Shown in pieces: positions 4,304 through 59,254 of a stretch of DNA of 64,000 nucleotides. This DNA is from Humulus lupulus (taxonomy: Eukaryota > Streptophyta > Magnoliopsida > Rosales > Cannabaceae). Each line of letters starts with the position of its first letter. The stretch's first letter is position 1. The notes under the pieces were generated by a model. The model had not been told where the DNA came from and ran no database searches. It saw only the letters and a list, made by a program, of their open reading frames with translations. Both the position numbers and the translations under genes were made by a program. The stretch lies in contig NC_084794.1 of NCBI RefSeq assembly GCF_963169125.1, positions 116,846,358 to 116,910,357 of the forward strand, given 5' to 3'.

Positions 4304-4440
4304 CACTACAACAATATTTAATATATATTGCATTAAAGAATAGCATATATTTAGAAGTGCTATTATTGTTGTGGGATTAAAAATACACGGAAGACATATT
4401 TTGGCGCCATATGAATAAAACTCAGGCGCCAAAATGAATT
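4304..4440. repeat. Left terminus of CACTA-1
   Basis: This end begins CACTACAACAATATT and has a subterminal stretch with AGAAGTGCTATTATTG, resembling AGAAGTGTTATCAATAG near the right end (29829-29845). Such subterminal repeats are where CACTA TNP1-type proteins bind in characterised elements. Confidence 0.65.
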
Positions 4441-4572
4441 TTTTTTTGTTAGTCTCATCTGGCAAATCCCTAAATCTAAGTTACCCGAAAGATTTCTCTC
4501 AGCCTCCATCTCTCACTCACGAAGACTCACTCCGCCCTCTCCGCCCTCACGAAGTCTCTCTCTCGTATTTCT

Positions 4573-5724
4573 CCTGAAGATGAACCCAAGTGTCCGGTCA
4601 TCATTTTCATCAATTCCAAAAGTGGAGGCCAACTTGGTGGTGATCTTCTTGTGACCTATAGGTCTCTTCTCAATGAAAACCAGGTATATTTATATACCCC
4701 TTATATATAAATTGTGTTTGTGTGTGTGAGTGTGATGTTGATTTGGAAGATGCTAATTTTCTTCAGGTTTTTTATTTGGGGGAAGAAGGTCCGGATAAGA
4801 TTTTGCGCCGAATTTATGTTAATCTTGCAAAGTTGCAGAGGGAAGGAGATAAGTTTGCCACTCATATCCAGGAGAACTTGAGATTAATTGTGAGTTTTTG
4901 TTAAAAAATTTAGTCTTACCCTTTATGATGATATAATATTATATAGAATATGATGACTCTTTTTAAATTTGTAATTGGAGAGTTGACATGTATTTTGCTC
5001 TCTTCAGGTTGCAGGTGGTGATGGAACCACAGGGTGGCTTCTTGGAGTTGTTTCTGATCTCAAGTTATCTCATCCACCAGCAATTGCAACAGTGCCCTTA
5101 GGAACAGGAAACAATCTTCCATTTGCATTTGGTTGGGTAGGAAGAACATGAACATTTCAAATCACTTCTACTTGTTCATTATACCTGTTAAAGCTTTCTT
5201 TACCGATTCAGAGATATATACATATATATATGTATATATCGTTGTGGCATATCCTTTCATCTTGTTTTGACTCATAAGCCACTTCTTGATGGTATGTTTG
5301 ATGTTGAGCTGAATCTTTTAATGTTAAAACCCCTGAAAAAGTGTTGATATTCACATTTACTGAAAAAAAATCATACTTTATTTAAGCTACTGAGTACAGA
5401 AACTATTTTCATTTACCGTGTTATGAACTTCAGTTTAATCAGTAGCCATATTAATTGGTGCTACAGGGGAAGAAAAATCCTGGGACAGATGAAAATGCGG
5501 TAAAGTCATTTTTGCGTCAAGTAATGGATGCTAAGGAAATGAAAATCGACAGGTCAGAGCAGTTGTTACTTTCTTTAGCACTTATTTTTTTTTCTATGAA
5601 ATCTTCTGTCGTTCTCAGTTGTAGGTACTAATTGTTGTTCCCTATTTGATTGTGAATAGTTGGCATATTATGATGAGGATGCGGGCTCCAAAAGAAGGTC
5701 CATGTGACCCTATTGCTCCTCTGA
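4573..5724 (+). pseudogene. Captured diacylglycerol kinase fragment (five exons)
   Basis: Five exons with canonical splice sites can be read: 4573-4683, 4767-4889, 5008-5136, 5467-5552 and 5660 to about 5724. They encode the N-terminal catalytic domain of a plant diacylglycerol kinase, which phosphorylates diacylglycerol to phosphatidic acid. Recognised blocks are [12 protein letters not shown] in exon 1, [13 protein letters not shown] (the ATP-binding GGDGT motif) and [14 protein letters not shown] in exon 3, and WHIMMRMRAPKEG in exon 5. The arrangement is most like the Arabidopsis DGK5 group. Exon phases join cleanly. Similarity stops after DPIAPL at about 5722, where the frame runs into unrelated sequence and a stop. 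The accessory domain and C-terminal half are missing. A CT-rich stretch at 4485-4570 looks like a captured 5' UTR. Confidence 0.85.
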
Positions 5725-5836
5725 AATGGATATTTTTTGCTTGCTGTTATATGAATGTTTCTCTTCTTATTCAGGCTTGCTTATTCACGAGGTAGCCAAT
5801 ATACTTAGCAGTTATTTTCTATTTTATTTATGTGTC

Positions 5837-6741
5837 TTTGTTCCTTGCTTTGATTTTGCATTTATGTGATAGATTGCAAAACCTTGTTATGTGCAAGCTA
5901 AAAATCAAGGATTCAATATCACAATGGAGTGATTTCTATGACACATGGGTCCTTTTTTTAACTTTTAAAACAATTGCATCAGCATGTGACACTTGTTGAA
6001 CTAAAAACTTTCCCTCTTGTTTAAAGATTCAGAGTGTATTTTTTTTTTTTCATTATGCTTGTAAGTTTAAAAATTGGGATGGCAATCAGGTGTTTAATGG
6101 AGTTGTTGATAAAAATTCAGGGTTGTTTTTAAGCTTTCCTTGGTTCTATTTATGTTTTGTTATGACTTGTTTAGATTGAGAATTTAGGTTTTGGGATTTT
6201 GAAAAATGGTTTCGCTATCTCATTCTCTAGTTGTAATTCTGAAAAACCAGTTTCAGATCTTCTTTGGATGCTGATTCAAGTGACATGCATTTGTTTTGTT
6301 CAAACTGAAATCAAAATCGTATTGAAAAACACAATATTATGTTATACAAATCTTTTTACTGAATTCCAAATAAAATAGAACATGAATAACTTGTATAGGG
6401 TAATTTAATGTGCTCTCGGCTTTATTTTGTTTTCATGGGAGTTTTTGATGTTGGTTCTTTGCTAGGCACTTATTTTTGCAAAAGAATTAGCTATGCCTGG
6501 AAATGGAGAGAAAGAGTCAAATTTGAGCAAGAAAAACGCTCACAAACTCAATGATTTATAAGGTAATTTCTCAGTTTTTGTTGGAATAAATTAATAAACA
6601 GCAAGCCATTTTAGCTTTTGATGTTCATTACTTAATTGGTATAACTAATGAGAATACATGACAAACTTCTATATCTGTCTTTGTTCCTTGCTTTTATTTT
6701 GCATTTATGTGATAGATTGCAAAACCTTGTTATGTGCATAG
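5837..6741. repeat. Pair of about 65-bp direct repeats inside CACTA-1
   Basis: The sequence around 5837-5904 recurs almost unchanged at 6677-6741, sharing TGTCTTTGTTCCTTGCTTT and ATAGATTGCAAAACCTTG. The copies flank about 770 bp of unassigned AT-rich DNA between the DGK and UPRT fragments. This may mark a duplication at a capture junction. Confidence 0.7.
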
Positions 6742-6834
6742 AGGGAATCATATATTTTGAGAATGGTTTATTTATGGTTTTGCATTTTGAGAATGGGATT
6801 AGTCAATGAGTAATGATCTTGAAATTATTACCAG

Positions 6835-7718
6835 GTCGTTGAGCATGGTCTGGGACATTTTCCATTTACAGAAAAACAGGTGGTCACTCCAACTGGTAAG
6901 CTGACAGTCAAATGGAATTTTTTAGTTCTTTGTCCCTTTCAGTTTTCTGTTTTCATTTTTAATGGGTTCCTTCAGCTTATATGTGAAAAATTACTTATCA
7001 TATTGTAACTTTTCCTTTTTTCTTTTTTTAAACAGGAAAATTTTTAGCATATGAGTAACATTAGCTTCTTGTCTGAATGTGAGGGCATTAACTGTTTAGC
7101 CTCAACAATTAAGTGCCACTACTCATATTAGAAAAGCAAAGCATATGTCAGTATTGCAAATCTTTAAAAAGGAAAATCTAATATTAACTGTCCTAATATG
7201 ACAGTTTAGGACCCATGCTTCATATGCATGTTTGCTGTTCAAAGACTAAAGTTAGTTTATGCTATATAGATGATACCTTCATTATTTTGTTTTCTTTTTC
7301 TAATTTTGATTTCGCTAAGAGAGTCCAATTTCTTGAAACTGTAATTGCTGATAGCTAATTTACATCTCCTGTCTTTCGCAGAGTCCGTGTATACTGGTGT
7401 AGATTTCTGTAAGAGATTATGTGGTGTGTCTATAATCAGGAGGTAATTTCGCAAAGCAATTATGGCATGTGTTTTTTTGTCAGTTTTTCATATAAATTTT
7501 ATATTTGGAAGCAAACTCTAGAGGATTTCTATTCTTGGGCCAAAAAATAAGATTCAAAGTTGTAATTTTTCACAATGTACTAATTCGATATATTCTCATT
7601 GCACACTTATTCTTGTCATTACAGCGGTGAGAGTATGGAGAATGCTCTGAGAGCATGTTGTAAGGGAATCAATATTGGGAAAATTCTAATCCACAGAAAA
7701 GGAGACAATGGCCAGCAG
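6835..7718 (+). pseudogene. Captured uridine kinase/uracil phosphoribosyltransferase fragment
   Basis: Three exons, 6835-6895, 7382-7442 and 7625-7718, join in phase. They encode the start of the uracil phosphoribosyltransferase domain of the plant uridine kinase-like (UKL) family, which salvages uracil to UMP. Diagnostic blocks are VEHGLGHFPFTEKQVVTPTG, SVYTGVDFCKRLCGVS and RSGESMENALRACCKG, then KILIHRKGDNGQQ. The uridine kinase half upstream and the PRPP-binding end downstream are absent. At the first exon junction a glutamate codon (GAG) stands where the family has glycine. Not part of a working gene. Confidence 0.85.
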
Positions 7719-8146: not shown

Positions 8147-8235
8147 ATCAAAAACTCACAAGCCAGGTCCATGAAATTTTTGGACGAATTAACGGCAGAT
8201 TTGGAACATTGACAGCTATTCCAATACATCACTTG
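8147..8235 (+). pseudogene. Captured trehalose-6-phosphate synthase exon
   Basis: A single exon bounded by ACAG and GTTCG reads VHEIFGRINGRFGTLTA followed by IPIHHL. This is a conserved segment of the glycosyltransferase domain of class I plant trehalose-6-phosphate synthase (TPS1-like), which makes trehalose-6-phosphate from UDP-glucose and glucose-6-phosphate. The preceding UPRT exon ends 430 bp upstream, so two unrelated genes lie in tandem in the same orientation. No other TPS exon was found nearby. Confidence 0.8.
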
Positions 8236-9530
8236 GTTCGTTTATGGCCATCTTAGTCAGTAATTACTATATGAATGGACAATTTATATCTCACTATATT
8301 CTTTTTGGGCTATTTGGTATTTGGACAAATGTTTTAAGTGTTGTTGACAGTTGTGTATACTGAACCGTATCTTATCATTGTTAGATTAAGCAATCACTCT
8401 TTTAGACACAATGGTTCTATATTTCAAATGGTATAGGCTTACCTGGTACGATTAAAATAGGACCTTGACAGTGTTAAGCTTGGTATAGATCACATCAGTG
8501 ACCCATCTATGTGGTATCTTAATGAGTAGGTGACATCAGTGTGCCCCATCTTTGTTTTTTTCTTGAATTGAACCTCAGTTTCTCATGCCAGTGCGTCAAC
8601 TATCTAATGCATTTGAACAATCTAACATTTTCTTTGCTTGAATTTTTTTAGTGTAAAAGTTGAATTTGTCAGATTAGTCTTAGTGTCAAGTAATATTCTA
8701 AGGGAAAAAATGTGGTAACCACTTAACAACCCTGCTTACAGACCTAGGTATTAGCATTTGATTAGAGTTTGTCGTGACTCTTTTTCGGTTCCTTATCTCA
8801 CCTTTAAAGGACAATCACCACCAAAGTGTTACCTCATTAAATTATCATACTTTTTTTTTAGTTATTTAAATTAAGGGTGAGGAAATACCATTATATCACT
8901 ACCACATCAATAATTGACGATTTTTTTATCTCAATTGTAAACTTGAAAAACTTGGTTATGCATCTTGTGATCACTGCAAAATTGTTCCGTGCAATTAGCT
9001 TCCTATTCATTATCAAAGAATTCATATTGTAGCACTTTTTTTAAATTTTCTTTATGAACATAGCTTAGCTATTAGACGAATTTATGTAATGGAGAGTTTT
9101 ATTGTGGGTCAAATTTATATAATTCACGGCTCAAGTAAATGTCTGGGTGAATTGTACAAAAGAGAAAAAGCTAACTTTTCATTCCCCTGTGAGAAGTAAA
9201 TGGCTGTTTCTATTTATTTCTTTCTCAATTTAGTTTTTCTGCTGCTTTTGCTACCTCTTGTCGTTGTATTTAAGAGTTTTGTTGTTCTTTTTATTTTGTG
9301 AGCTCTAGTTTCCAAGGACTCTATAGCGGGTTTGGATAGTTTCTTGGTTGTAAGAGTTGTAATTTTTTTTAATGATGACTCCTAATTAAAGGTCGAATGA
9401 TGTTGATAGTTTATTAATTGGTATGTAAATTTGCTTTCATTTTAGTGGCTTCATTGGATTTCAAATTGGAAGGAACTTTATTTGTAGCAGTTTGCAAGAG
9501 GTATGTTCTCTTTTCTTTTTGTTAAAATAT
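8236..9530. other. Unassigned AT-rich interior of CACTA-1
   Basis: No ORF, recognisable exon or LTR was found. The stretch may be captured intron sequence or CACTA interior. Confidence 0.5.
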
Positions 9531-9539
9531 TTTGCAAAT

Positions 9540-9790
9540 GTTAGAGGAGTTTAAATATCTTAGATATTCATCCATAGTGAAGTAGGTCCTCAAATTATTA
9601 TTATTATTGTGTGCTGCGGTGATAACAGAAGGTTGAGAATTTGTGTGTCTTAGTGAAGTAGGTTCTGAGAAATTTGTGTGCTGCGGCGAGATAAGGAAGA
9701 AAACTTGTGTGTTGTTTGAATATTTTGAATTGATAATGATTGATGGTTGGTTAATAAATATGGCTGAAATGTTTTCTGATTTTCTGTTAG
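9540..9790 (+). repeat. CACTA interior segment shared with CACTA-2
   Basis: About 220 bp here match 59255-59480 in CACTA-2 in the same orientation, including ATTCATCCATAGTGAAGTAG and GTGTGCTG-GGTGATAAC-type blocks. Within each copy a unit of about 80 bp starting AGTGAAGTAGG occurs twice. The shared segment links the two CACTA elements although their termini differ. Confidence 0.75.
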
Positions 9791-10221
9791 TTATTTGATG
9801 TATATCTAATAAACTTCAAAAACTCACATAAATTTGAAAGTAGAATCCAAACCCATGTGGAGAAATGTATTAGAATAATTATAAAAATAGCTTCTTGCAA
9901 TTCAAAAACTTGGGTAATAACATGTAAAAGATTTTTTAATGCAAGGCCAGTACATAATTTTTTTTAGTTTGAATATATACATCAAAAACCAAATACAAAA
10001 GAAAGAGTAACATCTCATTAACAAAAGAACTATTTATGAGAAAAGGAAAAAAAAAATCAATTGGAATATGATACAGGTTCTAGGCAACATGTAATTAGTA
10101 ATAACCCCAAAAAGATTATACTACTCCTCTCAAGATGTATTGTAACTCACATGATATAGATAACAAAATTCTGAAACCTCAATGAAAAACATAATAACAT
10201 CTTTAATATGCATATTTTTTA
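9791..10221. other. Unassigned sequence left of truncated Athila-1
   Basis: AT-rich, with no coding signal. Similarity to Athila-2 stops at about 10222, so this should be CACTA-1 interior or deletion-junction sequence. Confidence 0.4.
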
Positions 10222-13200
10222 GGCAAATTGAATGCCCTCAAACATTCGTCATTAAAATCAAAGACAACTCCATTCATAAGCAGATTCGAGAGAGGCTTAG
10301 ACACCTTTGAGAAATCTTTGATGAATCTTCGATAGAACCCAGCGTGACCAAGAAAACTTCTGACTCCTTTGACTGAAACTGGTGGAGGCAGCCTTTCAAT
10401 GGTAGAAATTTTTGCTCTATCTACCTCAATTCCTTCACTTGAAATTTTATGGCCAAGGACAATCCCCTCTTTCACCATAAAATGGCATTTCTCCCAATTC
10501 AACACCAGATTAGCCATCTCACAATGACGCAGCACGTTCTCCAAATTACCCAAACAAAGGTCGAATGATGAACCAAAAACAGAGAAATCATGCATGAAAA
10601 TCTCAATACACCAGTCTACCATGTCTGAAAATATGGCCATCATGCACCGTTGAAATGTTGCAGGGGCATTGCATAGTCCAAATGGCATTCTCCTGAAAGC
10701 AAATGTGCCATAAGGACATGTGAATGTTGTTTTCTCTTGATCCTCTGGTGCAATAGCGATCTGATGATACCCAGAATACCCATCCAAGAAACAGTAGTAG
10801 CTATGGCCTGCCAATCTGTCAAGCATCTGATCAAGGAAAGGCAAAGGAAAATGATCCTTCCTTGTGGCCTTATTAAGCTTGCGGTAGTCTATACAAATCC
10901 GCCACCCCGTTACAGTCCTTGTTGGAATGAGTTCATTGTTCTCATTTTTCACCACAGTCATTCCACCCTTCTTAGGTACCACTTGTACAAGGCTCACCCA
11001 TGCACTATCAGAAATTGGGTAGATCACCCCAACATCCAACCATTTAAGAATCTGCTCCAATACTACATCCTTCATGGCTGGATTGAGTCTTCTCTGAGCC
11101 TCTATGGATGGCTTGCTATTCTCCTCCAATAAGATTTTATGCATCACTGTCGCTGGGCTGATTCCTCTAATATCTACCAAGGTCCACCCAATGGCCAATT
11201 TATGCTTCCTTAGAACCCTCAACAGTTTCTCCAATTCTACCTTTGACAAGTCAGCTGACACAATGACCAGTAAAGTTTCATTCTCTCCCAAATAAGCATA
11301 TTGCAAGTGATCTGGGAGAACCTTTAGTTCCAACGGTGGTGGCTGCTGAATGGAGGTTAGCGGTTTATCAATCGCATCCGCTAATTCTTGGAACTTCTTC
11401 CAATATGGTAAGAACGAGTTGATCCAGTTGACACATTCTCTGATCTCAGCATCCTCATCATCATCGCCCTCATCACCCAATAATACTGCCTCTAAGGCAT
11501 CACTGCTCATCCTTCTCTTGGAGACTGCCTTTTCTATCATATCCACACTAAAGCAACTGTCACTAGCCACCGGATACTTCATAGACTTGAAGACATTAAA
11601 GACAACCTCATCTCCTTGAACTCTAAGCTTAAGCTCTCCTTTGTGAACATCAATAAGAGCTTGGCCTGTGGCTAGAAATGGCCTCCCAAGAATAATGGGG
11701 ACATCTGTGTCCTCCTCCATGTCCAGAACAATAAAGTCAGCGGGAAATATGAACTTATCCACCTTCACAAGAACATCATCAATAATACCTCGTGGATGTG
11801 TTAACGATCGATCTGCGAGCTGTAAAGTGACAGTTGTTGGTTTTGCCTCCCCCAAACCAAGTCTTTTAAACACAGATAAGGGCATCAGATTGATACTTGC
11901 CCCCAGATCACATAAGGCATGCTTACATTCAAATTTGCCAATGGTGCAAGGTATGGTGAAACTCCCCGGATCTCTCAGCTTTTGGGGTAACTTCCTTTGT
12001 AAAATAGCGCTGCACTCTTCAGTGAGTGCTACAGTCTCATAGTCCTCCATTCTCCTTTTCTTTGACAGAATCTCCTTCATGAACTTAACATAACTAGGCA
12101 TCTGCTCCAAGGCCTCCGCAAAAGGAATGTTTATGTGCAGTTTTTTAAACACCTCAAGAAACTTATAAAACTGTTTATCAAGGGTAGTCTTTCTAAGCCT
12201 CTGAGGGTATGGAACTCTAACTGGCTGTTCAATAACAACTGGCTGACTCTGTTCTGACTGTTGATGGTCTTCAGTAACCCTTTCTGAACCAGACTGTTCA
12301 CCCATCTCTTTATTCTGAACCTCTGCCTGTGGAGGTCTAGGATACTCAGTTTGCTTCCCACTCCTCAGAGTAATTGCCTGAACTTGCTCCTTGGGGTTGG
12401 CTTCAGTGTTACTAGGCAAGCTTCCCTGGGTTCTGTTATTGAGCATATTGGCCAACTGCCCAACTTGTGTCTCAAGATTTCGAATAGAGGATCTGGTCTC
12501 AGTCATAAATTGAGTCTGAGTATTAGTAAGAGTCAACAAGGCAGCTTGCAGTTCATTATGTCTCTCAGGTTGAGGCATTGGTTGTTGAGGCCTAAGCTGT
12601 TGTGATGATGAAGCTTGATTCATAGGTGGCTGAGGCATGTTATTCTGAAATTGGCCCTGAAACTGAGGTTGTTGACCTTGATTATTCTTCCACGAAAAAT
12701 TGGGATGATTTCGCCACCCAGGATTGTAGTTGTTGGAGAATGGATTATTGAGCGGCCTTTGGAAGTTTCCCACCGCTTGAAATTGAGCATGATCCATTGG
12801 GGTGCTATTATTACAGATAGGGCACTGATCGAAAGAATGAGCACCACCACACATTTCACACCTCACTGCCATCTGAACCGCATTAGCAGATAGACTGCTC
12901 TGTTGCAACTGCTTGGTCAAAGAAGCTACTTGCGCTGTTAAAGCAGTAATTGCATCCAGCTTATGCACCCCAGCTACCTTTCTGACTCCTGATGATCTTT
13001 CCTCAGACCACTGATGGTTGTTTGTAGCCATGTCCTCCAGCAGCTCATAAGCACCAGCTGCGCTCTTGCTCATAAAAGTGCCACCTGCTGCAGCATCTAT
13101 AATAGTTCTGGTTGTTGGACATAAACCATTGTAGAAATTCTGTACTAGCATCCACTGTTCAATGCCATGATGAGGACATCTTCTCAGGAGTTCCTTAAAC

Positions 13201-13823
13201 CGTTCCCAAGCTTCATACAGTGACTCCCCGTCATTCTAGCAAAAGTTATTTATCTCTCCCCTCAATTTAGCAACCTTTGACGGAGGGAAAAATTTGGATA
13301 AAAATTTCTGAGCTAGATCTTGCCAAGTGACAATGGAGTTTGGCTGCAGAGAGTTCAGCCAATTTTTAGCTCTGTCCCTTAGATAAAATGGGAAGAGCCT
13401 AAGCTTGATTGCGTCATCACTCACCCCATTATATTTGAAGGTTCCACACAACTCCAGGAAGTTGGACAAATGGGTGTGAGGATCTTCAGAGGGCAACCCA
13501 TTGAATTGCACAGAGGACTGCACCATTTGTAAAATAGCAGGCTTGATTTCGAAGTTGTTGGCCTCTACAGCTGGTGGGCGTATACTATTTTGTACTCCCG
13601 TCAGAGTGGGTAGCACATAATCTCTCAGGCTCCTCTCAGCGTTGGTCTGAGCCTGAACCCCTTGTACAACTCCTGGATTTAGACCATTCCTGCCATCCCC
13701 ATCATTCTGTGCCATCTTCACAGAATTCTGGGCCTCTCTCTTATTCTTTCTGATTTGATTGCAAGACTTTTCAATCTCAGGATTCAAAGGAACAAGTGTG
13801 GCTTTTCCTTTTCTGCCACGCAT
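10222..13823 (-). pseudogene. Athila-1 gag-protease-reverse transcriptase, truncated
   Basis: One frame runs from the ATG at 13823 ([11 protein letters not shown]) to the truncation, interrupted by an amber stop at 13236-13238 where Athila-2 has a glutamine codon. Gag has the capsid region and the knuckle [14 protein letters not shown]; the protease site CDLGAS is intact. The reverse transcriptase catalytic box reads FMHDFSVFG instead of FMDDFSVFG, so a catalytic aspartate is replaced by histidine. The last codons before the break run into foreign sequence and stop at about 10203. It cannot make active reverse transcriptase. Confidence 0.87.
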
Positions 13824-13938
13824 ATACCAAAATTCACCTGAGATGGAAAAATTTAGCAACTAAACAGATTAGAAGCAAATAAATTAAAATCAAATTAGAA
13901 TAAAAATTAATTAGACTGATATTGATAATTATTTTCAG

Positions 13939-13956
13939 TCCCCGGCAACGGCGCCA
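13939..13956 (-). promoter_or_regulatory. Primer binding site of Athila-1 (tRNA-Asp)
   Basis: The minus strand reads TGGCGCCGTTGCCGGGGA, complementary to the 3' end of plant tRNA-Asp(GTC) including CCA. It starts six bases after the LTR end. Confidence 0.9.
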
Positions 13957-13962
13957 AAAACT

Positions 13963-15311
13963 TGTTGCGAAATTTATAGCTATACAAGTGCACACAGTCG
14001 CAAACTTGTAATAAAATGGTAAAACCAAGTATCGTCCCCAAGGACTGATTTATCAATTACCAATCAATTAATCCCCTAATTCTATTTGATTAAACAATTA
14101 TCAGAGATTTTAAACTAAGAAAAATACTACAAAGCGCAGTAAAGAATTAAACAAATTAACAAAGAAAATACAATTAGGACAATTATGATCCTCTATTTTT
14201 CCACCCTGTTATTTCCTAATGCAAGCATCTATATCCCCTTCTCCCTATTCAATTATAAGTTGCAACAACAATTCATAATCTGGTCAAGACTTATGAAATT
14301 CAATCTAAAATGACAACTTCCTATATTTCTATGGTAAGTTGAATCATGTAGAAGGCATTAGCCACGCAACTCAGAAAATAAACAAATAATCTAGATACTT
14401 TCGTTCTAAATTAAATTTGCATCCGAACAATCAAAGCATATCAAATTTCACTTTTCAGATTTCAATTTGATTCATAAAATAGCAATTAGAGTTGATCAAT
14501 CAATAATCGCACAATTAACATAGATTGCAAGGAATTGAAAGAGATGATGAAGAATATCAATTTTGCATTAAACCATAGCAAGGGTTTCCAAAAGATTCAC
14601 ATAAAAGCCCTAAATAAAAATTTAGCCTATGATATTCATTCTAGCCATATAATTGTTCAATTACAAACATGAAAATTGACAGAAAAAGATGAAGAAAACT
14701 TAGAGACGAATCCTCCAATATGGTGTTCTTACTCCAGCCGTCGTCGTGTCCGTTCAACCTCTCTCAGTCGCCTATATGATTCCCAAAAACCCTACTGAAA
14801 GTTCCCTCTGGAAAAGACTGAATTGCCCATCAAAAATAACCAATTATGCCAGAATTCGCGAAACCAGCGCTATAGCGCTACCATTGTAGCGCTATAGCGC
14901 TACCATTGTAGCGCTGTAGCGCTAAACTCAGAAACAATACAGGGGAAAAACGGGGCACCAGCGCTGTAGCGCTCTTTTGGTAGCGCTATAGCGCTAAAGT
15001 CAGGAACTATCTTCCTGAAAACTGCGTCCAAGCGCTGTAGCGCTTAAGTCAGTACCGAACCTCTTCAAGAATTCTTCCTAGTGCTACAGCGCTCCCAAGG
15101 TAGCGCCGTAGCGCTACTTACAGAAACACCCAAAAGTCACAAATCCGTCTCGATTTCATTCCATTTTCGCTCCTTTTCAATATTTGCATCACTTAACATC
15201 AATAACCCTGAAACAAGAACAAACAAGCATAAATCCGAAATAAAACAACCCTGACTAATGAAAAATAGCATAAAAACTAGAACCATAAACGAGCCTAAAA
15301 CTCGTTTATCA
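13963..15311 (-). repeat. 5' LTR of Athila-1
   Basis: About 1349 bp, TG...CA on the plus strand. Its downstream edge is fixed by the PBS. The first 100 bases at the PBS side resemble the Athila-2 LTR, while the rest differs, including the GC-rich word array (AGCGCT here, CCGCGG in Athila-2). The outer boundary at 15311 is set by TTTATCA and is less certain. Confidence 0.75.
14868..15118. repeat. Array of AGCGCT palindromes in the Athila-1 LTR
   Basis: At least a dozen copies of AGCGCT, or slight variants such as AGTGCT, occur in about 250 bp, many arranged as AGCGCTATAGCGCT or AGCGCTGTAGCGCT with TAG/CCA-type spacers. The surroundings are AT-rich. A TATA-like CATATAGG follows on the element's strand near 14775. 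Confidence 0.85.
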
Positions 15312-15966: not shown

Positions 15967-16061
15967 TTCATAACACATGCTGAGTCCCCCACATTTGCAC
16001 ATTGTGCAAAGAACTTTTCAGCACCATCAGTCCATACCAGAAGCACTGTTGCAGTGCAACC
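15967..16061 (-). pseudogene. Captured PP2C-type phosphatase exon (reverse orientation)
   Basis: On the minus strand an exon bounded by TTTTACTCAG and GTATGT reads GCTATVLLVWTDGAEKFF followed by AQCANVGDSACVM. The GDSA block corresponds to the metal-binding GDSR-like motif of plant protein phosphatase 2C, and CTAT to the preceding conserved strand. The family dephosphorylates serine and threonine. I cannot say which PP2C clade. It runs against the other captured fragments, which shows at least two capture orientations. Confidence 0.65.
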
Positions 16062-18882: not shown

Positions 18883-18897
18883 AACTCCCCCAAACTT
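18883..18897 (-). promoter_or_regulatory. Polypurine tract of Athila-2
   Basis: The minus strand reads AAGTTTGGGGGAGTT directly before the 3' LTR, where plus-strand DNA synthesis is primed. Confidence 0.85.
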
Positions 18898-20240
18898 AAC
18901 CTTTACTCGCCCTCGAGTAAAGACCAAGTTACACTAACAAAAAGAAACAAACACAAAAACGAACAAGCTAAACCATCATTACCATCTACACTGCTTTGCC
19001 AACACTCATGAAACCTCAATTGCAATATTTATAACCAGAATTTCAGCTCAATTGCCTTAAAGTCCAACTTATACAGTTCAATTAGGAAAATCAATAATAT
19101 ATCATGAAAATGACTACAACACTTGCATTCTATCATATATGCTCAACTCATTCCAGATAATTCCACAAACCAAATCTACAATATGCTTGCATTACTCGAC
19201 CTTCTCCACTAATGTCAACAACACATGTTTTGAAATCAACAGGACTTTCACAGGTTATAGTGTTAGGCTTAGGTAAGGGTAGATGAAATTCTCATTTAAG
19301 CTCAATCGTTACCATAAGCATAAAACCTTAAAACCAACCAAATTTTTCTTTACCGCACCAAAAATCACCCTTTTATACAATTAGAGAGAGAGATGACAAC
19401 ACTTTTCATTATTTTCTTCTTTTCTTTTTCTAGACCTATCACTTTTTTTTTTTTTCTTTTTTTTCAAATCACACTCCCCCAAACTTATTATTTTCTATAT
19501 ATATATATGATCAAGGAGTGTGACAAAGTGATATTATTCTTTTTTTTTTTTTTTTTTTTCAAAGACTTCTCTCTCTCTTCTTTTTGTACAATCATACTGT
19601 ATTCCAATCATAACAACCTCTTACTATTTTTCCTTCTTCTTTCCCACAGATTATATGCTTATGATAACAAAAGGAAAGGAAAACAAAAATAAAGAAGTTA
19701 AGAAATTTAGGCTCAAATAGTATGATCAAGAACAAAAACCAAATTCAAGGCTCAAAAGGGTAACTAAGGATAATTAACTCAAGGTCGGCTTGAAAGGCAC
19801 AATCGATCCAAAAAAAATTGCCTAAATCACTTTTCTAAACACATGTCATCAAGAATTTCGCCTCAAAAGCCAAATAATGCAAGTTCTATTAGATTCAAAT
19901 TGTCATTCCACCAACCCTAGTCAAACTCATATAATACAATCCAAAATGTTGTCTTTTCAAAACATATTAAAAAATTTCCCACAGAACTTTTTAAATTCAA
20001 CTCTAAAACAATTGAACCAAGCACACAGTTGAATTCAATTTCCTTTTCACGAGCAAAGACAAAGCAAGTACAGACAAGAATGATGGTTTAACTTTTACAC
20101 TACAGAAAACTAAACTAAACTAAACAACGCAGAAAACAAAAATAAAACAAAATAAGCTCCCCCCCAAACTTAAGACGCACATTGTCCCCAATGTGATAAA
20201 GAAAAAAAAAACAAGGGAAGAGAACTTACCTGACGCCACA
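18898..20240. other. Athila-2 3' noncoding region with extra PPT-like copies
   Basis: No coding sequence. On the minus strand it repeats the polypurine word AAGTTTGGGGGAG at 19473-19486 and 20156-20171; a third extra copy is at 21604-21620, before the env-like ORF. It also has long T runs at 19442-19464 and 19540-19560. A perfect splice donor word CAGGTAAGT follows the env-like stop codon near 20223-20231 (minus strand). Confidence 0.7.
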
Positions 20241-21527
20241 TCAGTATGGCGGTGGAGGTGGTGGAGGTGGCCACTGATATGGAGTGTACTGTGGCGGTGG
20301 AGTGAAATAATTCTCATCGGCTGAACTCATAGTCCACCTCGTGACCAAAGTATTCAACTCCTCAATGTGAGACCGCCCATATTCATTTTGTTGCACCATA
20401 AAGTCATTATAGTGCTGATTTTGCGCCTGCTGCGATTGGATTAAATATTGATTTTGTTGAATAATGTAATCCAATCGAGCATGCGTACTCTGCGTGTGCT
20501 CGTCAATCGGTCCTCCAATTGCCAAATTTTCATGTGGGTTGCTGGGACCCGCTTCTTCTACTTCCTCCTCCTCAGCGCGATCAGGGCCCCCTGTTTCATC
20601 AGCCCGGCTGCGCTTATTTGGCTGAGTAGAGTCAGGCTGCGTAAGACAGGCTGGAGGAAAGGCCGTAAACAAGGTCTGATTGATGGCCCCCATTGGCCTC
20701 CGGACTAGATCGCTGGAAAAGGTTGGTACCTCATAAGTGCTACATAAAGTCGAAAGGAAGGTACCATGGGCGACACCAGCGGTAGTGTCGAATCGACTGA
20801 TGTTGCGTATGCTATATCGAATAATGCGACCCACATCGACCTTCTTTTGAGTCATGATAGCGTACACTAACAAACAACGCTCTCGATCAACAGAGGACAG
20901 GTGAGACGTCGGCAATAAACGTGCACACACAAAATAAAACCACGCCTTCGCAATTGGGTTTAGCTGCCACCTGAACAACTCTTTGGGCCTCCCATTATGA
21001 TAACTGAAATGTGCCCCTTCCATACTTAAGACCTCAGCCACCACATCATAGTCTGGCTCCTCGAAATGGGCCAACTGCCAGTATTCATCCTCTTGTGTAG
21101 AAAAAGAGGGAAGACCCAGTAATTGGTTGAATGCATAGGCTGATGTAGGCACCAATTTGCCTCTGACAAAATTATTCTGCTCTGCATCTTGATAGGAGAA
21201 ATTGGCGAAAAATTCATATATAATAGAGCAGTTGGCTGAATCCACATGGTTCGAGTCACAAAACAAATTCCATCTTCGACGCACTATTTCAGCTTTTATA
21301 AGTTCATAACCAGGGTGCTGTACAGCAGGGGCCTCATCAAAGTCAAACCCCCTTTCCCTTACCACCGATCTTTTATAAATCTTTTTAAACAAATCGGCAG
21401 CATCCTTACTCACAAAAAGATTCGTGTCATACTCAGCTGGGGCAGGTGGTGTTGGTGGTGGTTGAGTACGTGATGAGGATGCTTTCTTGGAGGAGGTGCC
21501 TCTAGGGGGATTTCTCTTAGGACCCAT
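20241..21527 (-). CDS. Athila env-like ORF (putative plant transposon protein)
   Basis: A 428-residue intact ORF from the ATG at 21527 to TGA at 20241, located after pol as in Athila elements. Residues about 40-270 form the conserved domain seen in Athila ORFs, with NLFVSKDAADLFKKIYKRS, ERGFDF, FANFSYQD, GLPSFSTQEDEYW and RCLLVYAIM blocks. A basic, serine-rich N-terminus (PKRNPPRGTSSKKASSSR) and a proline-rich C-terminus (PPPPPPPY) flank it. I see no signal peptide or transmembrane helix, so calling it an envelope rests only on position. Its function is unknown. The leader holds a GC-rich LTR-like module and a TATA-like box (see 21965-22230), so it may have its own promoter. A frame with an upstream TTG is open to 21539 but lacks an ATG. 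Confidence 0.85.
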   Translation of the reverse strand: MGPKRNPPRGTSSKKASSSRTQPPPTPPAPAEYDTNLFVSKDAADLFKKIYKRSVVRERGFDFDEAPAVQHPGYELIKAEIVRRRWNLFCDSNHVDSANCSIIYEFFANFSYQDAEQNNFVRGKLVPTSAYAFNQLLGLPSFSTQEDEYWQLAHFEEPDYDVVAEVLSMEGAHFSYHNGRPKELFRWQLNPIAKAWFYFVCARLLPTSHLSSVDRERCLLVYAIMTQKKVDVGRIIRYSIRNISRFDTTAGVAHGTFLSTLCSTYEVPTFSSDLVRRPMGAINQTLFTAFPPACLTQPDSTQPNKRSRADETGGPDRAEEEEVEEAGPSNPHENLAIGGPIDEHTQSTHARLDYIIQQNQYLIQSQQAQNQHYNDFMVQQNEYGRSHIEELNTLVTRWTMSSADENYFTPPPQYTPYQWPPPPPPPPY

Positions 21528-21964
21528 AATATCTTTCAAAGAGAACCAACTAAACCCCCAAATATGCTCTCAAGAACTTGAGTATACTTTCCTTTTTGGT
21601 GTCACTCCCCCCCAAACTTACTAATTACCACAATCAACACCTCAAACACTAATTCCCACAATCAATAGCCTCAAACAATAATGCCCACAATCAATAGCCT
21701 TTAACAATAATTCCCACAATCAAAAATTGACAAAACCCTTAATCTTCTCACAAGAACAACAAAGAACAATCCACAACACCACAATGCAATCTAATCTCTA
21801 ATCAAAAGTATTAGATTAGAGAAGATACACTTACTTGAATGGCACAAAAATCCTTCTTGTGGTCTCCTTGACTGATGGAAGTCTCAAACAAAATTAGAGA
21901 GAAAAGAAGTTTTGAGTGTGAGTAAGATTGTGAGAGTGAATGAATGGGATAATGGCTGATTTAG

Positions 21965-21975
21965 GGCTTTTTATC
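21965..21975 (-). promoter_or_regulatory. TATA-like box upstream of the env-like ORF
   Basis: The minus strand reads GATAAAAAGCC about 15 bp downstream of the GC-rich module and about 440 bp before the env-like ATG. A leader rich in C, T and A follows (TCACTCTCACAATC and similar). Further down the leader, a donor-like CAAGTAAGT at about 21829-21838 could start a leader intron. Inferred from sequence only. Confidence 0.4.
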
Positions 21976-21990
21976 CCAATTTTCGGACTA

Positions 21991-22230
21991 GGGCCGCGGC
22001 ATTACCTTGACTATGCCGCGGCCCGCATCAAATTTCCACACTGGAATGCCGCGGCCCTCTCAGACATATGCCGCGGCCCGCCTTGTGATTCTGGGAAAAC
22101 TTGGGATCAATGCCGCGGCCCTCCTCATCTATGCCGCGGCCCTCCTCATCTATGCCAAATCCGTGAGCCTCTGGAACCCCCCAATGCCGCGGCATCATAG
22201 GGCTATGCCGCGGCCCTTAAGGAATTTTTA
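21991..22230. repeat. Internal copy of the LTR CCGCGG module
   Basis: At least eight CCGCGG words lie in about 240 bp, arranged like those in the LTR (18381-18634 and 28839-29090) as paired ATGCCGCGGC...ATGCCGCGGCCCG cassettes. The module even ends the same way: ATGCCGCGGCCCTTAAGGAA here, ATGCCGTGGCTCTTAAGGAA in the LTR. It sits between pol and the env-like ORF, so an LTR regulatory segment appears to be duplicated inside the element. Confidence 0.85.
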
Positions 22231-22417
22231 ATTTTTTTGATTTTTTTGATTTTTTAAATTTTTTTCATTTTTCACGTTTTTCACGATTCTAAAAGTCCAA
22301 AAATAAACCAAATATCCATTGTTTACAAATACAAAAGTAAAAAAATAACAAGTAAAATATAGGGTGCCTCCTACAAGCGCTGTCGTTAACGTCATTTAGC
22401 CGGACGCGGAACCCTCT

Positions 22418-23190
22418 TCAGAGAGGCTTCAGAAGGAGGATAGACTTCGCTTGATCAAAACTACCACCCAAGTAGGGCTTCAATCTCTGGCCATTGAATT
22501 TAAATGAATCACCTGAGTTGCCCCGAACTTCTACAGAACCATAAGGAAAAACTTGAACTACAGTGAATGGTCCGGACCATCTTGACTTCAATTTGCCAGG
22601 AAACAGTCGAAGTCTTGAATTGAACAGAAGTACCTGCTGCCCTGGTTGGAACTCCCTTCTGATTAAGTTCTTGTCATGCCAAGCCTTTGTTCTTTCTTTA
22701 TAAATCTTAGCATTCTCATAAGCCTCATTTCTGAACTCGTCAAGTTCATTCAGTTGCAACAGTCTTCTTTCACTAGCGGCACTCCAATCATAATTTAACT
22801 TTTTCATAGCCCAAAATGCCCTATGCTCCAATTCAACTGGTAGATGACACGCTTTACCAAACACCAACCTATAAGGAGACATGCCTATTGGTGTTTTGAA
22901 TGCAGTTCTGTACGCCCAAATAGCATCATCTAATTTTTTCGACCAATTCTTCCTCGAACTGTCAACGGTCTTCTCCAGGATGCTCTTGACTTCTCTGTTC
23001 GAAACTTCAGCTTGCCCATTTGATTGAGGATGATAAGGCAAAGCTTTTCGGTGATAAACTCCATAACGAGCCAGCAGTGCATCCAGTTGCTTATTCACAA
23101 AGTGTTTCCCTTCATCACTAATCAGAGCTCGGGGAGTGCCAAATCTAGTAAAAATATGTTTATGCAGAAAATTAAGTACAGTTTTTACCG
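22418..23190 (-). pseudogene. Integrase end of Athila-2, out of frame by one base
   Basis: This frame continues integrase after the 1-base insertion near 23190. It has [13 protein letters not shown] (DEGKHF in place of the usual DNG-type block, as in Athila), [16 protein letters not shown] with the catalytic glutamate, and a C-terminal [20 protein letters not shown] block, ending at 22418 after the LKPYLGG motif. Apart from the frameshift no lesion is seen. Confidence 0.85.
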
Positions 23191-26100
23191 TCATTGGCTC
23201 TAGTTGCTGCAGCCTCCACCCATTTGGATACATAGTCCACTGCCAAGAGAATATATTCATTGTTGTAAGACGGTGGAAAAGGCCCCATGAAATCGATGCC
23301 CCATACGTCAAACATTTCCACCTCAAGAATCCCTTGTAGAGGCATTTCGTTTCTCCTCGAGATATTGCCAGTTCTCTGACATCTATCACAGGCCTTGACA
23401 AACACATTGGCATCCTTGAATAATGAAGGCCAATAGAAACCTCTTTGTAATACCTTAGCCGCCGTTCTTGATGCACCAAAATGCCCTCCGCATTGTTGAG
23501 TATGACAGTGATTAAGAATGGACTGCGTCTCTTCTTCAGGAACGCACCTTCTGATAATCTGATCAACACAGTGCCTATAGAGAATAGGTTCCTCCCAATA
23601 GTAGTGTTTCACCTCAGAAAAGAATTTCTTTAATTGCTGCTTTGACATTTCAGGAGGTACAATCTTGGCAACTAAGAAGTTCACTATGTCTGCAAACCAC
23701 GGGACAGCTAAAGTCTCACTTACCCCAAACAACTGCTCATCAGGAAAATGATCATTGATTTGCACTGCTTTCTTATTTTCAGTCTCCTCCACCTCAAGTC
23801 TAGAGAGATGATCAGCTACCACATTCTCGCTGCCCTTTTTGTCACGAATCTCCATGTCAAATTCTTGAAGCAACAGAATCCATCTAATCAAGCGGGGCTT
23901 GGCATCTTTCTTTGACATCAGGTATTTAATGGCAGAGTGATCAGTGTAGACAATCACCTTGTTACCAATCAGATATGGTCTGAATTTATCGCAAGCAAAC
24001 ACAATAGCTAGCAACTCTTTTTCTGTAGTGGCATAATTAAGCTGAGCATCATTTAGAGTCCGACTAGCATAGTAAATAGACCTGAATACCTTATCAATCC
24101 GCTGTCCCAGAACTGCCCCCACTGCGTAATCACTGGCATCACACATCAACTCAAAAGGCAATTCCCATCTCGGAGCTATCACAATTGGAGCAGAAATAAG
24201 CTTTTCTTTCAAGAAATTGAACGCCCTCAAACATTCGTCATTAAAATCAAAGACAACTCCATTCATAAGCAGATTCGAGAGAGGCTTAGACACCTTTGAG
24301 AAATCTTTGATGAATCTTCGATAGAACCCAGCGTGACCAAGAAAACTTCTAACTCCTTTGACTGAAACTGGTGGAGGCAGCCTTTCAATGGTAGAAATTT
24401 TCGCTCTATCTACCTCAATTCCCTCACTTGAAATTTTATGGCCAAGGACAATCCCCTCTTTCACCATAAAATGGCATTTCTCCCAATTCAACACCAGATT
24501 AGCCATCTCACAACGACGCAGCACGTTCTTTAAATTACCCAAACAGAGGTCGAATGATGAGCCAAAAACAGAGAAGTCATCCATGAAAATCTCAATACAC
24601 CGGTCTACCATGTCTGAAAATATGGCCATCATGCACCGTTGAAATGTTGCAGGGGCATTGCATAGTCCAATTGGCATTCTCCTGAAAGCAAATGTGCCAT
24701 AAGGACATGTGAAGGTTGTTTTCTCTTGATCCTCTGGTGCAATAGCGATCTGATGATACCCAGAATACCCATCCAAGAAACAGTAGTAGCTGTGGCCTGC
24801 CAATCTGTCAAGCATCTGATCAAGAAAAGGCAAAGGAAAATGATCCTTCCTTGTTGCCTTATTGAGCTTGCGGTAGTCTATACAAATCCGCCACCCCGTT
24901 ACAGTCCTTGTTGGAATGAGTTCATTGTTCTCATTTTTCACCACAGTCATTCCACCCTTCTTAGGTACCACTTGCACAAGGCTCACCCATGCACTATCAG
25001 AAATTGGGTAGATCACCCCAACATCCAACCATTTAAGAATCTGATCCAATACTACATCCTTCATGGCTGGATTGAGTCTTCTCTGGGCCTCTATGGATGG
25101 CTTGCTATTCTCCTCCAATAAAATTTTATGCATCACTGTCGCTGGGCTTATTCCTCTAATATCTGCCAATGTCCACCCAATGGCCAATTTATGCTCCCTT
25201 AGAACCCTCAACAGTTTCTCCAATTCTACCTTTGACAAGTCAGCTGACACAATGACCGGTAAAGTTTCATTCTCTCCTAAATAAGCATATTGCAAGTGAT
25301 CTGGGAGGACCTTTAATTCCAACGGTGGTGGCTGCTGAATGGAGGTTAGCGGTTTATCAGTCGCATCCGCTAATTCTTGGAACTTTTTCCAATATGGTAA
25401 GAAAGAGTTGATCCAGTTTACACATTCTCTGATCTCAGCATCCTCATCATCATCGCCCTCATCACCCAATAATACTGCCTCTAAGGCATCACTGCTCATC
25501 CTTCTCTTGGAGACTGCCTTTTCTATCATATCCACACTAAAGCAACTGTCACTAGCCACCGGATACTTCATAGACTTGAAGACATTAAAGACCACCTCAT
25601 CTCCTTGAACTCTCAGCTTAAGCTCTCCTTTTTGAACATCAATAAGAGCTTGGCCTGTGGCTAAAAATGGTCTACCAAGAATAATAGGAACATCTGTGTC
25701 CTCCTCCATGTCCAGAACAATAAAGTCAGCGGGAAATATGAACTTATCCACTTTCACAAGAACATCCTCAATAATACCTCGTGGATGTGTTAACGATCGG
25801 TCTGCGAGCTGTAAAGTGACAGTTGTTGGTTTTGCCTCCCCCAAACCAAGTCTTTTAAACACAGATAAGGGCATCAAATTGATACTTGCCCCCAGATCAC
25901 ATAAGGCGTGCTTACATTCAAACTTGCCAATGGTGCAAGGTATGGTGAAACTCCCCGGATCTCTCAGCTTTTGGGGTAACTTCCTTTGTAAAATAGCGCT
26001 GCACTCTTCAGTGAGTGCTACAGTCTCATAGTCCTCCATTCTCCTTTTCTTTGACAGAATCTCCTTCATAAACTTAACATAACTGGGCCTCTGCTCCAAG

Positions 26101-27812
26101 GCCTCCGCAAAAGGAATGTTTATGTGCAGCTTTTTAAACACCTCAAGAAACTTAGAAAACTGTTTATCAAGGGTAGTCTTTCTAAGCCTCTGAGGGTATG
26201 GAACTCTAACTGGCTGCTCAATGACAACTGGGGGACTCTGTTCTGACTTCTGATGGTCTTCAGTAACCCTTTCTGAATCAGACTGTGCACCCATCTCTTT
26301 TTTCTGAACCACTGCCTGTGGAGGTCTAGGTTGCTCTGTTTGCTTCCCACTCCGCAAAGTGATTGCTTGAACTTGCTCCTTGGGGTTGACTTCAGTATTA
26401 CTTGGCAAGTTTCCCTGGGGTCTGTTATTGAGCATATTTGCCAACTGCCCAACCTGTGTCTCAAGGTTTCGAATGGAGGATCTTGTCTCAGTCATAAATT
26501 GAGTCTGAGTGTTAGTAAGAGTCAACAGGGCTGCTTGCAGTTCATTAGGTCTCTCAGGTTGAGGCATTGATTGTTGAGGCCTAGGCTGCATTGATGACGA
26601 AGCTTGATTCATAGGTGGCTGAGGCATGTTATTCTGAAATTGACCCTGAAACTGAGGTTGTTGGCCTTGATTATTCTTCCACGAAAAATTGGGATGATTT
26701 CGCCACCCAGGATTGTAGTTGTTGGAGAATGGATTATTGAGTGGCCTCTGAAAATTTCCCACCGCCTGAACTTGAGCATGATCCATGGGGGTGTTATTCA
26801 TATAGATAGGGCACTGATCGACAGAATGAGCACCACCACACATTTCACATCTCACTGCCATCTGAACCGCATTAGCAGACACACTACTCTGTTGCAACTG
26901 CTTGGTCAAAGAGGCTACTTGCGCTGTTAAGGCAGTGATTGCATCTAGCTCATGCACCCCAGCTACCTTTCTGACTCCTGATGATCTTTCCTCAGACCAC
27001 TGATGGTTGTTTGTAGCCATGTCCTCCAGCAGTTCATAAGCACCAGCTGCGCTCTTGCTCATAAAAGTGCCACCCGCTGCAGCATCAATAATGGTTCTGG
27101 TTGTCGGACATAAACCATTGTAGAAATTCTGTACTAGCATCCACTGTTCTATGCCATGATGAGGACATCTTCTCAGGAGTTCCTTAAACCGTTCCCAAGC
27201 TTCATACAGTGACTCTCCGTCATTCTGGCAAAAGTTATTTATCTCTCCCCTCAATTTAGCAGCCTTTGACGGAGGGAAAAATTTGGATAAAAATTTCTGA
27301 GCCAGATCTTGCCAAGTGACAATGGAGTTTGGCTGCAGAGAATTCAGCCAACTTTTAGCTCTGTCCCTTAGAGAAAATGGGAAGAGCCTAAGCTTGATTG
27401 CGTCATCACTCAACCCATTATATTTGAAGGTTCCACACAATTCCAGGAAGTTGGACAAATGGGTGTGAGGATCTTCAGAGGGCAACCCATTGAATTGCAC
27501 AGAGGACTGCACCATTTGTAAAATAGTAGGCTTGATTTCGAAGTTGTTGGCCTCTACAGCTGGTGGGCGTATACTATTTTGTACTCCCGTCAGAGTGGGT
27601 AGCACATAATCTCTCAGACTCCTCTCAGCGTTGGTCTGAGCCTGAACCCCTTGGACAACTCCTGGATTTAGACCATTCCTACCATCCCCATCATTCTGTG
27701 CCATCTTCACAGAATTCTGGGTCTCTCTCTTATTCTTTCTGATTTGATTGCAAGACTTTTCGATCTCGGGATTCAGAGGAACAAGTGTGGCTTTTCCTTT
27801 TCTGCCACGCAT
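23172..27812 (-). CDS. Athila-2 gag-pol polyprotein
   Basis: One uninterrupted frame of about 1546 residues from the ATG at 27812 ([11 protein letters not shown]). In order: gag capsid (about 70-210), knuckle [14 protein letters not shown] (about 320-334), protease site CDLGAS (about 638), reverse transcriptase with [12 protein letters not shown] and the catalytic box FMDDFSVFG (about 1076), RNase H starting [16 protein letters not shown], the integrase zinc region with [12 protein letters not shown] and [11 protein letters not shown] (about 1430-1475), and the start of the integrase core ([11 protein letters not shown]). It stops at 23172-23174 because of a 1-base insertion near 23190, after which integrase continues in another frame. 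Catalytic residues upstream all look intact. A frame with an upstream TTG reaches 27848; I chose the ATG. The polyprotein forms virus-like particles and copies element RNA in the cytoplasm. Confidence 0.93.
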
Positions 27813-27925
27813 ATACCAAAATTCACCTGAGATAGACAAATTAAGCAACTAAACAGATTAGAAACGAGAGAAATTAAAATCAAATTAGAATAAAAATTAA
27901 TTAGACTGATATTGATAATTTTCAG

Positions 27926-27943
27926 TCCCCGGCAACGGCGCCA
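27926..27943 (-). promoter_or_regulatory. Primer binding site of Athila-2 (tRNA-Asp)
   Basis: TGGCGCCGTTGCCGGGGA on the minus strand, six bases after the 5' LTR. All 18 bases pair with the 3' end of plant tRNA-Asp(GTC) as I know it. Confidence 0.92.
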
Positions 27944-27949
27944 AAAACT

Positions 27950-29340
27950 TGTTGCGATAATTTTGCTATGCAAGTGCACACAGTCGCAAACTTGTAATAA
28001 AATGGTAAAACCAAGTATCGTCCTCAAGGACTGAATTATCAATTACCAGTCAATTAATCTCTTGTTCTATTTGATGAATTAAAATTTCTTGGTTTTTGTA
28101 AAATACAGCAAAAGAATCGATAGAGTGCAGAAATAATAATCGACAATTAAATAGAATAATAACTAATAGTAAAAACTCGTAATTCAATCACTGAGAAACA
28201 ATTAGGATATTCAATCTCATCAACTATCCTTCCTATTATTCCCTAATGCCAAGTATGAATTCTTCTTATTTTAACCTAATTCAATTAACAAGTTGAGACA
28301 GCAGCCTATAATCATTCTATGAATTATAAACTCAACCTAGGTGACAATTTCCTATATTTCTATGGTAAATTGAACCACAAAGGTAGCATTAAATTCCACA
28401 ACTTAATAACAGTTACACAATTAATTCAGATACTTTCGTTCTAAATTAGAATTATGTCCAATATAACCACAGCATAATTAAATCTCACTTCTCAGATTTT
28501 GACTTAAAAACATATATATATATATGACTAAAGATGGCCAATCAATAATCAATCTATAAGAACAGGTTATAAGGAATTGAAGAAGATTGGAAAAGAGGAA
28601 ATTAAAATTGCATTAGGTCATAATAGAAATTCAAGTGATTCAATTGAACATCCTAAACAGAAAATTAGTTCATAGTCATAGTGCTAATCACAACAGAATT
28701 TAAAGATAACATCAAGAAGAAAAACATGTAAAAATACTCTAAGCTTGAGCCTTCAACACCAGAACTCCTCCCTTCGTCCGTACCCCTTCTCTCTTCTTTT
28801 TCGTCCTTTAAAACCTAGGATTTTTAGATTTTAGAGAGGCGGGCCGCGGCTCTACATACACTATGCCGCGGCCCGTGTCAAAATTTCTGGGCAGACTATC
28901 CTTTCAATGCCGCGGCTCTCTGAAGCCATGCCGCGGCCCGCATCATTGTCTTCTGGGCAGAATGCCCATCCATGCCGCGGCTCTACCTAGCCATGCCGCG
29001 GCCCGAAGATGTCCTCAAAAACCATGCTTCTGTTTCTCCCCCTAGCCGCGGCCCTACATTGATCATGCCGTGGCTCTTAAGGAATTCTTCAATTCTTCAA
29101 GTTTTCATCCCAAAATTTCACCAACACTTCCAAATGGTGTTGAGAACCATTCTTGATCAAAATATGATGAAAAACTCGATTATTTCTTCCCTTTCTTTGG
29201 CATTTCCTTCCACATGCTCAATTCTTCCTGATATTCACAAAAACAACCAAACAAAGCGTAAACCCGCACTAAAACAAGGAAAAACAAAATAAAAGACTAC
29301 TAAAAACATCACCAAGACATCATAAAAACTAGACTCATCA
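27950..29340 (-). repeat. 5' LTR of Athila-2
   Basis: 1391 bp, TG...CA, with CCGCGG cassettes at 28839-29090 and TTTTAAAGG at 28805-28813 about 30 bp downstream of them on the element's strand. Near-identical to the 3' LTR. Confidence 0.95.
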
Positions 29341-29345
29341 AGACA

Positions 29346-29892
29346 CATTCATGGTTTGAATTAGTTATTGTTTAATGTAATACTTATGGTTTATCAATCT
29401 ATTGATAATTACATTTTATGATTAATTTTGATTTTTTTTTTTTATCAAAATACAATAATGAAAATCTTTTAATTAAAAAAATACCATATAAGTATACTTA
29501 TCAAAATAAAATTTAAAATTTTATTATTATATGTTATGATTTAAAAACATATTATAGGCGTAAAAAATCATTATGGTTTATATAATATAACAAATTAAAA
29601 ATGTTATCAAAATAATCAAATGTAACAGTTGAAAAGTGTTATGAAAAAAGTATAAGATTAAACTTCAAATTTATAACCAAAAACTCTATCTAAATGTTAT
29701 TATTTGAATATTATAGCACCTAAAAATGTGCTATTGAATAGTTTAAGATAACACCGAACATAACATTCAAATACTGTTATAGAAAACACTAGACTTTTAA
29801 TAACAGGGGCTATGTTAGCATTTTCAGAAGTGTTATCAATAGTCCCGGTTAGCAGTTTTTAAGTGTTATGAATACTGTTTTTTCTTGTAGTG
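29346..29892. repeat. Right terminus and subterminal region of CACTA-1
   Basis: AT-rich, with several AAGTGTTAT/AGTGTTATGAA-like words in both orientations (for example 29829, 29860), typical of CACTA subterminal repeats. It ends TTTTTTCTTGTAGTG at 29892, followed by the CCC duplication. Confidence 0.75.
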
Positions 29893-29895
29893 CCC

Positions 29896-56990: not shown

Positions 56991-56999
56991 TAGCCAAAT

Positions 57000-59240: not shown

Positions 59241-59254
59241 TTATACAAGTGTAT

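Follow-up and report, generated by a model that had tools for sequence, protein, structure and literature searches.

The window analysed here, a stretch of 64,000 nucleotides from Humulus lupulus (C2:116846358-116910357), carries at positions 4304-29892 an insertion which is very probably a non-autonomous CACTA (En/Spm) element of the Pack-CACTA kind and a member of a large mosaic family. An earlier note on this DNA had read it as a CACTA transposon that captured fragments of several unrelated host genes, and this interpretation is supported. The superfamily is recognizable by a CACTA terminal repeat, a 3-bp target-site duplication (TSD) and a PF03017 remnant, while the Pack-CACTA kind is indicated by intron-containing pieces of host genes enclosed by CACTA ends and by many copies with conserved ends and variable insides. 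The mosaic family, a fusion junction within the window copy and two nested retrotransposons are new compared with the earlier note; the kind of element is already known, and the present one is an unusually clear example.

The 5' end of the element, CACTACAACAATA, lies at 4304 and the 3' end, ...TTGTAGTG, at 29892. The CACTA terminal inverted repeat CACTACAA is present at both ends, and the CCC duplication that the earlier note had placed around these ends is confirmed by the reading of the ends as well as by the join of the empty site. The terminal features are:

4301-4303, no strand: left copy of the target-site duplication CCC (end reading and empty-site join)
4304-4566, plus strand: 5' terminal block of the CACTA family, beginning with CACTACAACAATA (scored genome matches and comparison of fetched copies)
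17010-17174, approximate limits, plus strand: CACTA coding remnant (TNP1/EN/SPM, Transposase_23; Pfam PF03017)
29341-29892, together with about 17364-17491, plus strand: 3' terminal block, ending in ...TTGTAGTG (genome matches and other 3' ends)
29893-29895, no strand: right copy of the target-site duplication CCC (end reading)

The terminal blocks measure about 263 bp at the 5' side and about 680 bp at the 3' side. For a reconstruction of the empty site 600 bases of each flank were joined and a single CCC was retained. Across this join 122 codons are open, and they match another Ty3 frame of the window over 118 residues without a gap (44% identity, E=6.6e-37). The flanks are therefore parts of a single older Ty3/gypsy retrotransposon, which is decayed, because the wider frame of 399 codons over the rejoined flanks is interrupted by 8 stops. 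From the CACTA ends, the CCC duplication and the open join it follows that 4304-29892 is one insertion unit. The coding remnant matches PF03017 with E=4.6e-5 and 23.6 bits (cut-off 21), and one 9-mer occurs three times in the 900 bases of the 3' end, very A+T-rich words being excluded from the count.

Between the ends lie fragments of a diacylglycerol kinase (DGK), a uracil phosphoribosyltransferase (UPRT), a trehalose-6-phosphate synthase (TPS) and a PP2C phosphatase, together with later insertions and with the boundary of two modules, named A' (left) and B (right):

4579-5720, plus strand: DGK fragment, five exon pieces with GT-AG introns
6835-7718, plus strand: UPRT fragment, exons 6835-6895, 7382-7442 and 7625-7718
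8147-8235, plus strand: TPS fragment, one exon (Pfam Glyco_transf_20, PDB matches)
8686-8687, no strand: junction of modules A' and B, with a 2-bp overlap TC common to both
8688-10227, plus strand: left part of module B (identity to B copies)
10228-15669, minus strand: truncated retrotransposon with long terminal repeats (LTRs), reaching to about 15310, and about 360 bp of unknown origin
15967-16061, minus strand: PP2C phosphatase fragment, one exon, reversed (Pfam PP2C)
17492-29340, minus strand: nested LTR retrotransposon, both LTRs present (TSD AGACA at 17487-17491 and 29341-29345)

The fragment peptides were spliced by eye before they were compared with Pfam. The DGK fragment (exon pieces 4579-4683, 4767-4889, 5008-5136, 5467-5552 and 5660-5720) matches DAGK_cat with E=1.9e-19 and keeps its introns, splice sites and reading frame intact, and the UPRT fragment matches UPRTase with E=6.2e-18. 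The single TPS exon finds seven trehalose-phosphate synthase sequences in PDB (best E=1.6e-5). No PDB match was obtained for the PP2C exon; combined with two further exons of another copy of the family (C4_92.5) it reaches E=5.2e-15 for Pfam PP2C. By their Pfam E values the four fragments claimed in the earlier note are thus real, TPS being under and PP2C at the cut-off, and its statement that three of them point one way and one is reversed also holds, with DGK, UPRT and TPS on the plus and PP2C on the minus strand. Between the DGK and UPRT exon runs there is a direct repeat of 67 bp (5829-5895 and 6672-6738, 65 of 67 positions identical), which is present in sister copies too.

The earlier note had accepted that its reading would fail if the two ends never occurred together elsewhere. 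In searches against the own genome (2.48 Gb), which score only the best 40 matches and leave further first-look candidates unscored, the 5' end (query 4304-4560) gave 40 scored matches of 848 candidates and the 3' end 40 of 2217. Fifteen other 5' ends were fetched, six because both ends were listed 8-12 kb apart and nine because of a high score. Eight of these copies, namely the six pre-selected for paired ends and two others, have the 3' end within the DNA fetched; for the remaining seven it was not found within the 10 kb fetched. Six of the eight paired copies have a perfect 3-bp TSD (TAT, GAG, GAT, TCC, ATT and AGG), one has an imperfect one (CTG/TTG), and the eighth has damaged ends; CACTACAA stands at both ends in the other seven. 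The two ends therefore do occur together elsewhere. Homology to the window stops at 4564-4574 in 8 of the 15 fetched copies, and the 3' terminal block is common to all 29 other 3' ends compared, which are the best-scoring ones.

Comparison of what these copies carry, which the earlier note had proposed along with the search for their ends, reveals that paired ends recur and that the insides differ. Seven of the fifteen share the DGK block with the window, two of these through position 8586, UPRT and TPS included; six have B sequence in common with it to the left and to the right of 10228-15669; and two (C1_206.5 and C4_181.1) have neither the DGK block nor the full B, C1_206.5 sharing only the ends and 17180-17491 with the window. 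The copies are composed of pieces of one another. At the 29 other 3' ends the homology extends over the whole 1.5 kb compared in ten cases and stops at 17176-17180 in eight, at 17321 in four, at 16970 in two and elsewhere in five. Frames were read, in part, in six of the fifteen copies (C4_92.5, C4_211.8, C1_206.5, C7_20.1, C1_60.9 and C1_251.6). Further host-like fragments were found there: VHS in C4_92.5 (E=2.1e-25), AMP-binding in C4_211.8 (E=2.5e-17, read as a long-chain acyl-CoA synthetase), Dak2 in C7_20.1 (E=7.6e-12), IQ in C1_251.6 (E=5.8e-9, read as myosin-like) and a kinase-like fragment in C7_20.1 (E=9.4e-5, slightly under the cut-off). Window and six copies together hold nine host-like fragments whose Pfam E is below 1e-3; seven of these reach or exceed the curated cut-off. 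The Ariadne-like and bHLH-like readings made by eye in C4_211.8 have no Pfam family above cut-off and were left outside the nine; three further peptides likewise gave no Pfam family above cut-off.

The window copy joins two types of inside. Its A' side is of the DGK-UPRT-TPS type and its B side of the PP2C type, and both meet with the 2-bp overlap and without filler. Up to 8687 the window tracks an A' copy (C1:88262450-88263050, 97.7% over 397 bases), and from 8686 on it tracks the B copies. Three of these are 94.8-97.7% identical to the left part of module B starting at 8686, and a fourth, starting at 8788, is 97.1% identical. When 8400-8800 was the query, one of the 40 scored matches spans the junction, and this is the window itself; 12 of the 40 stop at 288 or 292 of 401, at most 5 bases from the junction, and 27 at 201-203. 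This search left 90 of its 130 candidates unscored, and the B copies, matching just 115 bases, are not in the list. With the 100 bases before the junction 40 of 41 candidates were scored, and besides the window 12 matches cover at least 98 of the 100 bases, at the same 12 places as the stops near the junction. Because only the window spans the junction among the 40 scored matches, the fusion of A' and B is not shared among them. The stretch 8587-8686 was also considered as filler or as chromosomal DNA between two elements; this idea is rejected, as the stretch is repeated and a sibling copy is continuous through 8586 to the junction.

The earlier note had supposed several capture events, and this is supported, since the copies with the DGK-UPRT-TPS block form another set than those with the PP2C block. 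As the window copy fuses two mosaic types that existed before it, more than one lineage probably gathered its four fragments. In the mechanism that we propose a transposase made elsewhere would cut at the CACTA ends, and the insides would change as two nearby copies in the same orientation lose the intervening DNA by end-joining, or alternatively by a template switch in gap repair after excision. The outer ends of the fused copies would then move as a single element, with the captured exons as passengers that mostly drift. It is conceivable, at only slightly less than an even chance, that the family as a whole is a module-exchange system, in which fixed terminal blocks enclose multi-gene blocks that are repeatedly cut and joined between copies into ever-new combinations of exons, the window copy being a recombinant at 8686-8687.

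The strongest competitor to the fusion of neighbouring copies is an interrupted gap repair in place, for which no neighbouring pair is needed: a resident copy would be cut, another type copied in and the break closed by end-joining. The junction, unshared by the other scored matches and lying inside intact ends with their TSD, would fit such an event, as would the 2-bp overlap without filler and the terminal blocks retained in the compared copies. Nothing specific speaks against it; a fusion of neighbours predicts the identical structure, and the Pack-TYPE study favours fusion of neighbours (PMC8903248). We consider gap repair in place a possible, on balance rather doubtful origin of the junction.

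A different suggestion of the earlier note, that the element acts on its parent genes by chimeric transcripts or small RNAs, appears unlikely. The soybean element Tgm-Express1, whose exons are spliced into chimeric transcripts (PMC1947982), provides a precedent only, and the window copy has kept the DGK frame and splice sites. The exons, however, show little constraint. In the 28 pairs formed by eight A-type copies, which are not independent and in which the exon limits used are inexact by a few bases, the differences amount to 2.86% in exons, as against 2.13% outside them, with 1.83% in the terminal block. With corrected exon limits the DGK of the eight copies has 0.105 non-synonymous and 0.142 synonymous changes per site, stops in two copies and a lost splice acceptor in one. 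On these figures the DGK exons drift almost neutrally.

Two further readings are highly improbable. Two unrelated CACTA insertions whose outer ends resemble one element by chance could be thought of, as the perfect terminal repeat between the ends is only about 8 bp long and 3 of 200 shuffles gave a local match between the end regions as good as the best real one; yet there is a single empty site with a single CCC, and the identical pair of ends with TSDs is found in other copies. A reading of the host-like pieces as a real gene cluster, or as retained genes into which transposons inserted, would agree with the intact introns and splice sites of the window DGK fragment, but every gene is present only as a partial run, stops occur in some copies, and the pieces are found again at dispersed places, next to the same ends but with changed neighbours. 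The last observation is also evidence from the own genome against collinear host genes at this locus, a finding which the earlier note had named as contrary to its reading. A Helitron is ruled out by the CACTA ends and the 3-bp TSD, as Helitrons make no target-site duplication and have 5'-TC and CTRR-3' ends, and gene capture by retrotransposons, which yields intronless (spliced) gene copies, by the retained introns with GT-AG sites.

Several points weigh against the interpretation as a gene-capturing element of a mosaic family. The TPS exon matches Glyco_transf_20 only with E=4.2e-5 and 22.9 bits, below the cut-off of 32.5, and the PP2C exon (E=4.9e-4, 20.3 bits) just equals its Pfam cut-off. 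While CACTA elements usually carry repeated motifs at both ends, the 600 bases of the 5' end contain none by the same word count, again with A+T-rich words excluded. The window element showed no transposase gene; a DDE transposase and transposase-bearing copies were not searched for. The fetched copies are a chosen, high-scoring and non-random sample. The division into A and B is not clean, as two of the seven DGK copies also hold 9230-9821, which is part of B, and C4_181.1 has 9358-10044 but no other part of B. The 2-bp overlap at the junction may be due to chance, and the fusion may have come about by end-joining of neighbours or by gap repair. Finally, the donor genes were not found: of 25 genome matches to PF00609 two DGK loci were fetched, and donors for UPRT and PP2C were not sought. 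Both fetched loci are other paralogues with about 29% identity, so the donor search proposed in the earlier note did not locate the DGK parent. Because donors were not found, we infer the capture from the exon-intron structure and the dispersal of the fragments.

Twelve of the 25 DAGK_acc (PF00609) matches cover a nearly identical stretch of the profile (9-46 to 9-48), ten of them with an open frame of 71 amino acids, which suggests a dispersed captured exon of the DGK accessory domain.

The present size of the window element is due to the two LTR retrotransposons. The LTRs of the one at 17492-29340 are identical at 1387 of 1391 positions, and its exact empty site is seen in C4_92.5. The truncated retrotransposon in 10228-15669 is a sister of this element, and the adjoining 15311-15669 (about 360 bp) has no convincing match in the 15 fetched copies. 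The B copies hold about 2.5 kb in place of 10228-15669; in C4_92.5, the only B copy read there, these include two more PP2C exons. Without 10228-15669 and 17492-29340 the CACTA element measures about 8.3 kb, which the two retrotransposons later enlarged to 25.6 kb.

Comparable elements are known from other plants. Tgm-Express1, a CACTA element of 5.7 kb in the soybean F3H gene which was studied through its transcripts, likewise holds pieces of host genes, five in number and unrelated to each other, in which exons and introns are present (PMC1947982). While this is one element, that of the window belongs to a mosaic family of many copies, has received two LTR insertions and was analysed through its DNA. 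The Tpn1 family of Ipomoea nil, with 339 identified CACTA elements, also comprises non-autonomous copies with conserved ends, 3-bp TSDs and insides replaced by captured host sequence; its terminal repeat is 28 bp long, compared with about 8 bp of perfect repeat here, and transposase-coding copies are known (PMC5105172). The Pack-CACTA elements among the Pack-TYPE transposons share the CACTACAA ends and contain host coding DNA from several loci (PMC8903248). The same work proposes the fusion of neighbouring copies and describes AB and BB fusions, its detailed example being a Pack-Mariner family of rice with an average length of 311 bp in group A (PMC8903248); in contrast, both parents of the window copy contain blocks of kilobase size in which several gene fragments lie, and these are joined directly. 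Captured fragments of host genes are also reported for CACTA elements of Chenopodium, where they are located upstream of the transposase region of the element itself (PMC8978399), whereas that of the window showed no gene for a transposase.

The means by which DNA transposons acquire and reshuffle parts of genes are not settled, and a review leaves room for a route of capture yet to be discovered (PMC13317346). The family described here has hundreds of first-look candidate ends, module boundaries that recur, and a copy with a private junction between two recognisable parent types. It would let the fusion of neighbours be weighed directly against gap repair, and for RNA studies it offers a natural series of exon combinations.

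Some minor observations concern the retrotransposons and the remainder of the window. Rfam snoR71 matches above the gathering score lie antisense to the gag frame in both sister retrotransposons (13162-13268 and 27151-27257), and the snoR71 family may contain retrotransposon sequence. Short palindromic G+C-rich motifs are repeated in or near LTRs (14866-15116, 18383-18629, 34086-34208 and 40691-40832) and differ from one retrotransposon of the window to another. A second CACTA-like element is found at 55807-61841, with inverted ends of 29 bp (CACTACTACAAAA...) that are 90% complementary and with arrays of 35- and 59-bp subterminal repeats; it is flanked by TAC and TAT, without a clean 3-bp duplication.

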